NCBI RefSeq assembly: GCF_009857135.1
Contig: NZ_CP047318.1
Coordinates: 5,704,001 to 5,768,000, forward strand
DNA from: Streptomyces sp. HM190
GTDB lineage: Bacteria; Actinomycetota; Actinomycetes; Streptomycetales; Streptomycetaceae
DNA: 64,000 nucleotides
Direction: 5' to 3'
Both the position numbers and the translations under genes were made by a program. Shown here in pieces: positions 38,380 through 41,531 of this stretch. The notes beneath the pieces were generated by a model. It was not told the origin of the DNA. It worked only from the letters and a program-made list of their open reading frames with translations, and made no database searches. Every line of letters begins with the position of its first letter. Positions within the stretch are counted from its first letter, which is position 1.

Positions 38380-38703
38380 GCCGACCGCGTGGCCGCCGCC
38401 CGAAACCGGGCCCGCCCCATGTGCCCCCGGGCGCCGTCCGCACGGCCTCCCGCCTGCGCTTGTGCGCCGTACCCCCGCCTGCTGCCACACCCCCGGCACG
38501 TGACGCGATTCATACCGTCGCACGTCCTCGTACGGCCCGAAGCCGCCCGTACGCCGTCCCACGCGCCGGGCGCTTTCCCTGCTGCTCGCAGCGCTGTGGC
38601 TATGCTGCCCAGTTGTTGTGCGGACCGTAAGGAAAGCGAGCGCGACGCCCGAGAGGGGGGCGGGCCGCTCCGGTCCGTCGAGAGCGAGGAGGCGTCCGGG
38701 CAC
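38380..38703. other. Intergenic region after tatB
   Basis: 324 bp, GC-rich. Around 38580-38640 a TATGCT hexamer (possible -10) and an AAGGAAAG tract appear, followed by GAGGAGG ~13 nt before the next start. No gene is seen. Confidence 0.4.
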
Positions 38704-39375
38704 ATGGAGACGACGAGTCGGGTAGGCGCGCAGGCGTCGGCCGCGGAGGGCGGACAACAGCTGCCCTCCGCCCGGCGCACGGTCGACGGCTACCTGCTGG
38801 CGCCCTTCCCCTGGTACGGCCTCGACGAGGCCTTCACGGGACCGCGCTGGCTGATGCAGGTCGGTACCTCGGCGGAAGGCGCCGTCGAGCACGGTTCGGT
38901 CGGACACGGCGACGAGCCCTCGGTCCGCAACGAGTTCACGGCGGTCACGGACGACGAGCCCAAGGAGCGGTTCGCGGTCGTCGTGACCGTCGCCGCCAAC
39001 GACGTACGGCGCAGCGCCGACGGCACGGGCGTCCTGGAGGCCACCACGGTCTCCTCCGCCGCCTGGCTGGCCGGTGTGGGGCTGCTGTCCTTCACCTGGC
39101 CCGGACAACTGGACCACACCCTGAGAGACGACTGGCTGGACCAGCAGACGGAGACGGCGTGGGTCCTCGCGGACGACCTCGCCGGCCCCGACTGGTCGAC
39201 GCTGTCGCTGCCGGTGGACGGCGTCCCCACGCCGTTCCACTACCGCGAGTCCGAGTTCGGATGGGTGCTCGCCGGCTCGACCCCGGAAGGGGTGCACGTG
39301 GGGGCGTACGGGCGCGGGATGAGCGCGTACGGCCTCGGGTTCGCCATGATCAAGGACATCGCGACGTACGCCTAA
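38704..39375 (+). CDS. Conserved hypothetical protein (223 aa)
   Basis: A soluble protein with no signal peptide or membrane span. The core contains WLMQVGTSAEGAVEHGSVGHGDEP, FAVVVTVAANDVRRS and a C-terminal glycine-containing piece GVHVGAYGRGMSAYGLGFAMIKDI. It looks like a single globular beta-rich domain. I do not recognise a family function. ATG 38704 fits the drop in coding character upstream, although the GAGGAGG is rather distant. Its stop is 16 bp before the structured element at 39392-39568. Confidence 0.7.
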   Translation: METTSRVGAQASAAEGGQQLPSARRTVDGYLLAPFPWYGLDEAFTGPRWLMQVGTSAEGAVEHGSVGHGDEPSVRNEFTAVTDDEPKERFAVVVTVAANDVRRSADGTGVLEATTVSSAAWLAGVGLLSFTWPGQLDHTLRDDWLDQQTETAWVLADDLAGPDWSTLSLPVDGVPTPFHYRESEFGWVLAGSTPEGVHVGAYGRGMSAYGLGFAMIKDIATYA

Positions 39376-39391
39376 GCACCGTTGCAGTACC

Positions 39392-39568
39392 AGGGCGGGT
39401 TTCGAAAGGAGCGTCGTCTGCCCGAAGGGCAGGCCCGGCGGCGTCCGGTGCGTGCGATCGCACGGCGGAGGGTCGCCCCGGTACCGGTGGTTTCGGGGCG
39501 ATCCCGACAACGCGGCGAGCGTGTGTGCCGGACGCCGCCGGGCGGACGGGACTTTCGAAACCCGCCCT
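39392..39568. mobile_element. 177-bp element with perfect 17-bp terminal inverted repeats and nested stems (MITE-like or structured RNA)
   Basis: The ends AGGGCGGGTTTCGAAAG (39392-39408) and CTTTCGAAACCCGCCCT (39552-39568) are perfect inverted repeats. Inside lie a 6-bp hairpin with a GAA loop (39418-39432), a perfect 16-bp second helix (39433-39448 with 39528-39543), a 14-bp palindrome (39451-39464) and an 8-bp hairpin extended by G-U/G-C pairs (39473-39480 with 39494-39501). It encodes no protein and sits between converging genes. No obvious target-site duplication is seen. It could be a non-autonomous transposon remnant, a DNA cruciform or a 3'-UTR structure. Confidence 0.55.
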
Positions 39569-39595
39569 AGCGGTGCCGCCCGCGCCCAATGAGAA

Positions 39596-39627
39596 GGGGC
39601 ACCGCGTCGTGTGACCCGCGGTGCCCC
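39596..39627 (-). terminator. Terminator of the mrp gene
   Basis: 11-bp perfect stem GGGGCACCGCG / CGCGGTGCCCC (39596-39606, 39617-39627) with a 10-nt loop, 44 bp beyond the mrp stop on the minus strand. Confidence 0.75.
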
Positions 39628-39670
39628 GTCCGATACCCCCGAGAAGCGGTCTGCCGCCTCGGCAGGAGCC

Positions 39671-40804
39671 CTAGAACTTGTTCCTCGGGGTGATCCCCAG
39701 GCTCATGCCCGACAGGCCCCGCTGACGGCCGCCCAGCTTGCCGGCGATGGCTCGCAGGGCCGCGCCCGCCGGGGAGTCGGGATCGGAGAGCACGACCGGC
39801 CTGCCCTCGTCGCCGCCCTCCCGGAGCCGGACGTCGATCGGGATGCTGCCGAGGACGGGCACCGTGGCGCCGGTGGTCCGGGTGAGACCGTCGGCGACGA
39901 CCTGGCCGCCACCGGTGCCGAAGACGTCCACCATCTCGTCGCAGTGCGGGCAGGGCAGGCCCGACATGTTCTCGACCACGCCGACGATCTTCTGGTGGGT
40001 CTGGACCGCGATGGATCCGGCGCGCTCGGCGACCTCGGCCGCCGCCTGCTGCGGGGTCGTGACGACGACGATCTCCGCGTTCGGGACCAGCTGCGCCACC
40101 GAGATGGCGATGTCGCCGGTGCCCGGCGGGAGGTCCAGGAGCAGGACGTCCAGGTCGCCCCAGTAGACGTCCGCGAGGAACTGCTGGAGGGCGCGGTGGA
40201 GCATCGGGCCGCGCCAGACGACCGGCGCGTTGCCCTGGATGAACATGCCGATCGAGATGACCTTCACCCCGTTCGCGGACGGCGGCATGATCATGTTCTC
40301 GACCTGGGTGGGGCGGCCGTCGGCGCCCAGCATGCGCGGCACCGAGTGACCGTAGATGTCGGCGTCGACCACGCCGACCTTCAGACCGTCCGCGGCCATC
40401 GCTGCCGCCAGGTTCACCGTCACCGAGGACTTGCCGACGCCGCCCTTGCCGGACGCGACGGCGTACACGCGGGTGAGCGAGCCCGGCTTCGCGAAGGGCA
40501 CCTCGCGCTCGGTCTGGCCGCCGCGCAGGGCGGACGCCAGCTCACGGCGCTGCTCATCGCTCATCACGTCCAGTTCGACGTCGACGCGGGTGACGCCCTC
40601 GACCCGTGCGACCGCCTCCGTCACGCGCTGCGTGATGGTGTCGCGCATGGGGCAGCCGGAGACCGTCAGGTACACGGCGACTGCGACCGCTCCGTCCGCG
40701 CCGATCTCCACCGACTTGACCATCCCGAGTTCGGTGATGGGGCGGTTGATCTCGGGGTCGTTCACCGTCGACAGTGCCTCGCGCACCGCGTCTTCCGTAG
40801 CCAT
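39671..40804 (-). CDS. mrp: Mrp/NBP35-family iron-sulfur cluster carrier ATPase
   Basis: P-loop ATPase of 377 aa that delivers Fe-S clusters to apoproteins. An N-terminal MIP18/DUF59 domain (~1-85, with CPMRDTI) is fused to the ATPase. The deviant Walker A GKGGVGKSS is near 119, followed by DADIYGHSVPRMLG, DLPPGTGD and the cluster-binding CxxC in GLPCPHC. The C-terminus is IPIDVRLREGGDEGRPV-type. ATG 40804 is clear. Homologue of Rv1229c, keeping the mycobacterial order. The DUF1003 and MgtE-like genes lie upstream on the same strand. Confidence 0.9.
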   Translation of the reverse strand: MATEDAVREALSTVNDPEINRPITELGMVKSVEIGADGAVAVAVYLTVSGCPMRDTITQRVTEAVARVEGVTRVDVELDVMSDEQRRELASALRGGQTEREVPFAKPGSLTRVYAVASGKGGVGKSSVTVNLAAAMAADGLKVGVVDADIYGHSVPRMLGADGRPTQVENMIMPPSANGVKVISIGMFIQGNAPVVWRGPMLHRALQQFLADVYWGDLDVLLLDLPPGTGDIAISVAQLVPNAEIVVVTTPQQAAAEVAERAGSIAVQTHQKIVGVVENMSGLPCPHCDEMVDVFGTGGGQVVADGLTRTTGATVPVLGSIPIDVRLREGGDEGRPVVLSDPDSPAGAALRAIAGKLGGRQRGLSGMSLGITPRNKF

Positions 40805-40847
40805 AGGGACGATGGTACGGCGACGCGCGGGGCCCCTGGGAGCCCGG

Positions 40848-41531
40848 TCAGCGGTCGTCCATGTCACGCCCGCCGGGGTGCTCCGGCGGGAATACCGTCC
40901 TGGTCCCGCGATGTCCGTCGCCGTCGTGCTCGTGCAGTTCCCTGACCAGGTCCTGGAGCTCGGAGCGCAGCCAGTCCCGGGTGGCGACCTCACCGAGACC
41001 GATCCGCAGGGCCGCGATCTCCCTGGTCAGATACTCGGTGTCGGCGATCGACCGCTCGTTCTGCTTGCGGTCCTGTTCGAGGTTGACCCGGTCGCGGTCG
41101 TCCTGGCGGTTCTGCGCGAGGAGGATCAGCGGGGCCGCGTAGGACGCCTGCAGGGACAGCATCAGGGTCAGGAAGATGAAGGGGTAGTTGTCGAAGCGCA
41201 GGTCCCGCGGGGCCGAGACGTTCCACACCACCCACAGGATGATCACGACGGTCATCCAGACGATGAACCGCCCGGTGCCCAGGAACCGCGCGATCCGCTC
41301 CGAGAGCCGCCCGAACGCCTCCGGGTCCCATTCGGGCAGGAACCGCGCCCGGCGCGGCAGGGGCTGGTCGAGACGGATCCGCGGGCGCGCGCCGGCCCCG
41401 ACGGGCACGCGCTCCCGCGCGGGCGTTCCGGAGGACGGTGTGCGCTCGCGGATCACCGCCCCGGCGTGTGCCCGCTCGCGCCCGCCGGCCCGCCCGTCAC
41501 GCCCCTGGCGCTCGGCACGCTCAGGAACCAT
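40848..41531 (-). CDS. DUF1003 membrane protein
   Basis: A 227-aa protein with a basic N-terminus, two closely spaced membrane spans (about 88-106, FIVWMTVVIILWVVWNV; and 118-142, YPFIFLTLMLSLQASYAAPLILL) and a long C-terminal helical region rich in charged residues (NRQDDRDRVNLEQDRKQNERS). This matches the DUF1003 family (Rv1231c in mycobacteria). Function unknown. Its start overlaps the stop of the MgtE/CBS gene by 11 bp, so the two are probably cotranslated and may act together. Confidence 0.85.
   Translation of the reverse strand: MVPERAERQGRDGRAGGRERAHAGAVIRERTPSSGTPARERVPVGAGARPRIRLDQPLPRRARFLPEWDPEAFGRLSERIARFLGTGRFIVWMTVVIILWVVWNVSAPRDLRFDNYPFIFLTLMLSLQASYAAPLILLAQNRQDDRDRVNLEQDRKQNERSIADTEYLTREIAALRIGLGEVATRDWLRSELQDLVRELHEHDGDGHRGTRTVFPPEHPGGRDMDDR

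Follow-up and report, generated by a model that had tools for sequence, protein, structure and literature searches.

The 177-bp interval at positions 39392-39568 of the window (the whole analysed stretch of 64,000 nucleotides from Streptomyces sp. HM190) is, by comparison of its copies, a non-autonomous transposon of the miniature inverted-repeat (MITE) type. Very probably, this MITE is moved in trans by IS5-family transposases into CTAG sites. It carries a conserved 105-nt core that may act as RNA at the 3' ends of genes. A preliminary description of the sequence had proposed a miniature transposon, a structured RNA or a protein-binding cruciform. The first two readings are compatible, as the element is a MITE with a conserved fold inside it.

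The anatomy given in that description was confirmed. The ends are perfect 17-bp inverted repeats, AGGGCGGGTTTCGAAAG on the left (39392-39408, plus strand) and its exact complement on the right (39552-39568, minus strand; 17/17 bases), which were seen in the sequence, in the copies and in a repeat search, where they formed part of a 24-nt pair at 88%. The nested perfect 16-bp helix pairs GCCCGGCGGCGTCCGG at 39433-39448 with CCGGACGCCGCCGGGC at 39528-39543 (16/16) and was part of a 29-nt pair at 79% in the repeat search. The smaller hairpins were also found, namely a central one at 39470-39504 and an accessory one, GCCC-GAA-GGGC, located on the plus strand between the left end and the core (about 39418-39433; sequence and fold). 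The stability of the folded interval was matched by none of 200 dinucleotide shuffles: the RNA fold of 39380-39640 had an energy of -176.4 kcal/mol, compared with -132.6 (sd 5.2) for the shuffles (z -8.5). Alignment of the copies gave better bounds for the element, GGGCGG...CCGCCC at 39393-39567 (plus strand, as oriented by the core), between a left target site CCAG (39390-39393), a degenerate CTAG, and a right target site CTAG (39567-39570). The 105-nt structured core occupies 39436-39540 on the plus strand, where covariance model R1 scored 103.6 bits against 31.4 bits on the other strand.

The element lies, as if inserted, between the stop of the upstream gene at 39375 and a terminator-like inverted repeat at 39593-39630, as had been described. 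The upstream gene (38602-39375, plus strand) had no Pfam match at E 0.001. The inverted repeat, detected by the repeat search, is the ordinary terminator-like repeat of the convergent genes and stands outside the element. The downstream gene on the minus strand (39671-40993 as the longest ORF, stop side 39671, with a gene finder start at 40804) is of the mrp type and encodes a Mrp/NUBPL-type P-loop ATPase. The statement that the element contains no gene is supported by the covariation and by one-base length changes among copies, yet two mechanical ORFs, of 62 and 79 codons, run across it. An identical 14-base stretch, CACCGTTGCAGTAC, precedes the element in the window (39376-39389) and another copy (L013), and is perhaps the end of another repeat.

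A BLAST search of the source genome (7.76 Mb, one contig) with a 188-base query detected 21 near-full-length copies including that of the window, the other 20 at 86-94% identity, together with shorter pieces. Dispersed copies with the same ends, which the earlier reader had named as support for a mobile element, were therefore present, with the end consensus CTAGGGCGTGTTTCGAAAG. A search of the genome for the end pattern, with 3 mismatches, yielded 77 end-like sites, whereas the reversed control yielded 1. The 77 include pairs with a spacing of 947 bp (12 places), six 66-bp pairs and one 85-bp pair. A hit at 920488 (L080) was rejected as a chance match inside a gene. The seven short forms of 66 bp and 85 bp contain no core, and their existence suggests that mobility does not depend on the core, provided that those forms moved as such. 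At G000:C1:6970026-6970368 (L068, L105, L113), two core elements whose end types differ adjoin each other head to head.

Empty sites were identified in relatives. A query built from the two sequences that flank the element in the window found matches in 385 of the 392 genomes of the genus. Of the foreign loci, the 29 that matched best were fetched; there the distance from the gene end to the mrp end was 43-160 bp, compared with 274 in the window. A gap of 43-160 bp is too short for a 177-bp element, which is therefore absent from all 29. Ordinary hairpin terminators were visible at this locus in relatives without the element. Another copy of the source genome, 2265324-2265503, lies on the nadA stop codon (the gene was identified through Pfam NadA); beside nadA, the element was absent in 16/16 relatives searched. 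The nearest relative at this locus (G139) reads GCC-GTAG-CCC where the source genome reads GCC-GTA[element]TGG-GCCC, and the nadA stop is GTAG in 10 of the 16 relatives and TAA or TGA in the remainder. Judged from these comparisons, the insertion at the window locus is recent and lineage-specific.

Two IS5-type elements with similar ends reside in the same genome. The first, a 947-bp IS, occurs at 12 places; by their scores, 10 of these copies are identical to the query and two nearly so. Its ends are similar but not identical to the consensus of the element family, with 2/18 bases differing per end. Its two overlapping frames carry DUF4096 and DDE_Tnp_1 domains and both score above the cut-off of the NCBIfam IS5 model NF033580; similar DNA on Streptomyces plasmids is annotated as IS5 family transposase. 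The flanks read C-TA...TA-G in all four copies viewed. One copy of this IS directly adjoins a copy of the element with a common CTAG site, at G000:C1:6989390-6990515 (L061). A second end type, AAGGGCTGTCCCGTAA, was displayed by five core elements, a 61-bp core-less form and an 873-bp IS, whose ends TAAGGGCTGTCCCGTAA are common to the second-type core elements. The 873-bp IS encodes a 256-aa DDE transposase, the best match of which was NF033581 at 119.3 bits, below the model cut-off of 140. A search of both IS (L060, L294) with model R1 gave no core match. Since the ends of two different IS5-type transposons match those of core elements, both transposons are associated with the same core in one genome, and we infer with high confidence that mobility is through IS5-type transposases acting on the element. 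The element is thus short, has terminal inverted repeats, is dispersed in multiple copies, has empty sites in relatives and has ends in common with an autonomous IS. The reading as a miniature transposon was borne out by the dispersed same-end copies, the lineage-specific insertion and the resident IS with similar ends. Membership of the REP/RAYT systems, defined in PMC3733652 as 20-40 bp palindromes with an IS200/IS605-type transposase, was rejected, as neither the element size nor the DDE-type partner fits.

The insertion site is CTAG, on both sides in most copies. The palindromic site and the end repeat make duplications of TA and of CTAG look alike, as at the empty GTAG of G139 versus GTA[element]TGG. 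Gene ends came from a simple gene finder based on codon usage, whose calls were checked in the window. In 13/26 copies of the source genome, 32/65 copies of relatives (with distance classes set by arm length) and 11/34 copies of genome G290, 56 of 125 in total, the site's TAG coincided exactly with the stop codon of a neighbouring gene. Copies inside a predicted gene numbered 0/26, 3/65 and 0/34, respectively. In three foreign copies (L035, L044, L179), a predicted reading frame surrounds the element and continues across it without a stop. The gene-end address of the copies is sufficiently explained by the rarity of CTAG inside genes: the 64-kb window has 16 CTAG sites, whereas 165 are expected from base composition (about tenfold depletion), and seven of the 16 are predicted stop codons while none is inside a predicted gene. 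A special targeting of stop codons is unneeded, as 7/16 in the window is much like the 56/125 of the copies.

Directional targeting was likewise rejected. The gene on the 3' side of the core was on the opposite strand in 7/7 plasmid contexts with annotated neighbours (two further regions had none), but this fell to 17/26 in the source genome, 43/65 in relatives and 21/34 in G290, and the insertions that hit a stop codon exactly are split between the two sides of the core (5 and 8 among the 13 of the source genome). With these counts the idea was dropped, and a 3'-end preference via CTAG suffices. The orientation to neighbours is not consistently fixed, and therefore many copies would be read on the wrong strand by the neighbouring gene. 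Another palindromic repeat bounded by CTAG, AGAAGGCTCATGAAGATCTTGGG..., adjoins several copies (L015, L018, L024, L078); insertions seem to nest at CTAG sites.

Part of the element matched in 316 of 392 sampled genus genomes at E 0.001, with two candidates scored per genome. In the source genome, the covariance model identified 26 cores of at least 75 bits, the next match having 49.9. Core matches at E 1e-9 were found in 17/41 relatives, up to 48 per genome, comprising 13/25 in the genus and 4/15 in another family of the order. A core variant occurred on Actinospica contigs (39 stretches, two species), and 5/5 scored loci matched the model. In a sample of the phylum, where 13 candidates were scored per genome under strict filters, six of 296 genomes matched and all were Streptomyces. 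The core is known from Streptomyces and Actinospica. Copies were also located on 34 Streptomyces plasmid records at 57 places. A phage search gave no copies, and one contig of a viral collection holds a copy. No annotated feature lay under the match in 27/28 plasmid rows with some annotation, although two of those records are hardly annotated.

The interior of the element recurs inside other ends. An alignment by sequence of 36 cores, picked for diversity from the fetched loci and excluding rows with large inserts and the most divergent family, was folded by RNAalifold into one irregular hairpin of 41 pairs, 20 of which changed on both sides. In comparison with 500 shuffles, which ignore kinship, paired cells amounted to 96.3% (86.2% in shuffles), double-changed cells to 148 (52 expected) and covariation to 0.340 (0.160 expected), and no shuffle was as high on any of the three. 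The number of further pair types, 49, was closer to the expected 43.6, and five of the 500 shuffles reached it. Control structures slid by 1-3 columns paired only 26-53%. The internal loops are nearly invariant (AUCGCAAGGCG and CAACGC.GCGAG in the core alignment), and a GA/GA internal pair step read from the alignment is swapped for CC/GG or CG/CG in some copies. Rfam 15 covariance models applied to the window locus and seven other loci gave only sub-threshold matches, with no family at its gathering score. Some copies with different ends (G066 L330-L335, L076, L077, L086) contain an additional hairpin, about 39-45 nt long, at a similar point of the 3' arm, GGATGGGG...CTCGAGCGAAGCCGAGAGC...GGGG. 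The partial BLAST matches in G066 that looked like deletion derivatives are copies of about 220 bp whose 3' arm contains such a hairpin, about 39 nt long.

The pairing is also asymmetric between strands. Across 134 distinct cores, the helix displayed 797 G-U cells and 79 A-C cells. The six mostly-wobble pairs accounted for 582 versus 1; at the other pairs the cells numbered 215 versus 78, a bias that shrinks to 17 versus 11 when counted pair by pair. The control, the outer 20 bases of the ends, gave 46 versus 33. In RNA folding, the modelled strand (plus in the window) was more stable than its complement in 147/147 distinct cores (-74.7 versus -55.5 kcal/mol). These results indicate that a single strand of the core folds, and since the wobble pairs favour one strand, RNA is likelier than single-stranded DNA. 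The covariation and the strand asymmetry of the core thereby lend partial support to the structured-RNA reading of the preliminary description.

The same observations bear on a DNA role. A core that serves as a single-stranded DNA hairpin in replication, conjugation or transposition, as a target for the transposition machinery or a host factor, and that is conserved for the sake of mobility, would be consistent with the covariation, which fits any folded single strand, and with the many end types that the core has travelled with; with DNA energies the modelled strand was also the better one in 145/147 distinct cores. We consider this improbable, however, since RNA tolerates conserved tandem wobbles better, there are forms without the core, and the partner IS5-family transposases are DDE enzymes. 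DDE transposases of the IS5 family are not known to use single-stranded hairpin intermediates. A double-stranded protein-binding site or cruciform, of a nucleoid or partition type, agrees with the inverted-repeat anatomy but appears very improbable, because wobble pairs on one strand are not expected of a site in duplex or cruciform form, and because the paired arms vary freely in sequence with their pairing preserved. That proposal of the preliminary description is not favoured for this reason.

The position of copies at gene ends and the long GC-rich hairpin would also suit a mere stable bidirectional terminator or insulator, for which any strong hairpin would suffice. This is unlikely in our view: near-invariant unpaired bases (ATCGCAAGGCG, CAACGC.GCGAG) and one-strand wobbles are superfluous for a simple or bidirectional terminator, and at the window locus the relatives have ordinary terminators but not the core. 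An RNA fold recognised at the 3' ends of genes is the most likely role of the core on the sequence evidence, a reading in which we place at least as much doubt as confidence.

The same core sits within about 16 end types, and comparison of trees and ends indicates that ends are exchanged around it. End-pair calls were usable in 144/158 unique copies, the 14 with no or out-of-range TIR call being left out. Among 18 end-type clusters, two mis-anchored ones of one copy each were dropped, and 16 types in 138 copies were kept; the types were separated at a distance of 30%, which leaves the common one broad. On the core tree (104 columns, most forks unresolved), the 16 end types needed 27 changes, compared with a minimum of 15 and a shuffled mean of 59; the end label is therefore clustered but not one-to-one with the core. 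The cores with the commonest ends do not form one clade (AU p 4.2e-7), while end types AAGGGCTGTCCCGTAA and AGTGCCGTGACCGG each form one clade, with support of 100 and 98. Copies L081 and L083 have cores 97% identical and ends 58% alike.

Changes confined to single copies were compared between parts of the element. Per site, the ends had 0.675, the core 0.276 and the inner linker 0.139 such changes in the source genome; the values in G290 were 0.25, 0.095 and 0.139, respectively. The ends thus degenerate faster than the core does (p 0.0012 and p 0.04). The single-copy core mutations did not save pairing (G-U 6, A-C 8). Selection on inserted cores after insertion is not claimed, because the linker is as conserved as the core and the singletons save no pairs. 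Both observations, including the source-genome rates of core and linker, speak for the core being unselected passenger DNA, in which covariation and asymmetry would stem from few ancestors and arm-to-arm gene conversion, and homogeneity from conversion or recent bursts. We give this only a small chance, as conversion yields identical arms and not wobble pairs, and as many pairs change in several ways with unchanged loops, across end types and two families. Somewhat more tentatively than its recognition at gene ends, the structured RNA may be a long-lived passenger, in Streptomyces and Actinospica, of many IS5-type MITEs with unrelated ends, in which the RNA rather than the transposon end would be the unit of descent and a portable 3'-UTR element, delivered by CTAG and recognised via its internal loops.

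Similar systems are known. The Correia/NEMIS elements of Neisseria are likewise small gene-less inverted-repeat elements; they have a TA-type target and, as far as is known, one end type per family, and NEMIS is cut by RNase III. In contrast, the fold of the present element is conserved across its end types. PMC2229807 describes RNA secondary structures of Correia/NEMIS that act on transcripts of adjacent genes. QMITE2 of Coxiella (150-190 bp) resembles the element in size and in its mainly 3' untranslated and intergenic location, those QMITE copies that touch functional genes do so at the 3' ends, and some MITE copies are sRNA genes, but QMITE2 has variable direct repeats of 7-11 nt, no CTAG site and an unrelated host (PMC5896051). 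The pneumococcal RUP and MITEs in general are also short, without coding capacity, with ends of 15-30 bp through which transposases recognise and mobilise them; the portions of PMC2229807 and PMC3733652 on them contain no conserved structured core independent of the ends. Mosaic TIMEs derived from Tn3 (PMC4133298) are non-autonomous and give rise to mosaic transposons, but they belong to the Tn3 family and their cargo arises between two elements, whereas here the ends are exchanged around one core. The two Streptomyces IS5-family IS agree with the element in ends and CTAG-type site and differ in possessing transposase genes and no core. The element is therefore of a known kind, a bacterial MITE, and its conserved core with interchangeable ends is new; the open-licence literature searched contained no description of the element or its core.

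In the mechanism that we propose, IS5-family transposases would recognise the ends of the element and join it into CTAG sites in trans. Insertion would mostly spare genes and regenerate the stop codon, because CTAG is rare and largely confined to TAG stops and intergenic DNA. When transcription reads through from the neighbouring gene, the core would act as RNA, folding in the 3' untranslated region, where it might be recognised by a protein or nuclease, or might end or insulate the transcript. The insert might thereby be tolerated or useful, and exchange of ends would let one core ride whichever IS5-type element is active.

If the core is RNA, Streptomyces genomes would hold dozens of near-identical folded elements at 3' ends that are listed in no RNA catalogue, and these would constitute a natural experiment on the ends of mRNAs. 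A transposon with a conserved inside and interchangeable ends would be the reverse of the usual MITE, and the rarity of CTAG would offer a simple route by which a transposon may spare its host, by landing on stop codons.
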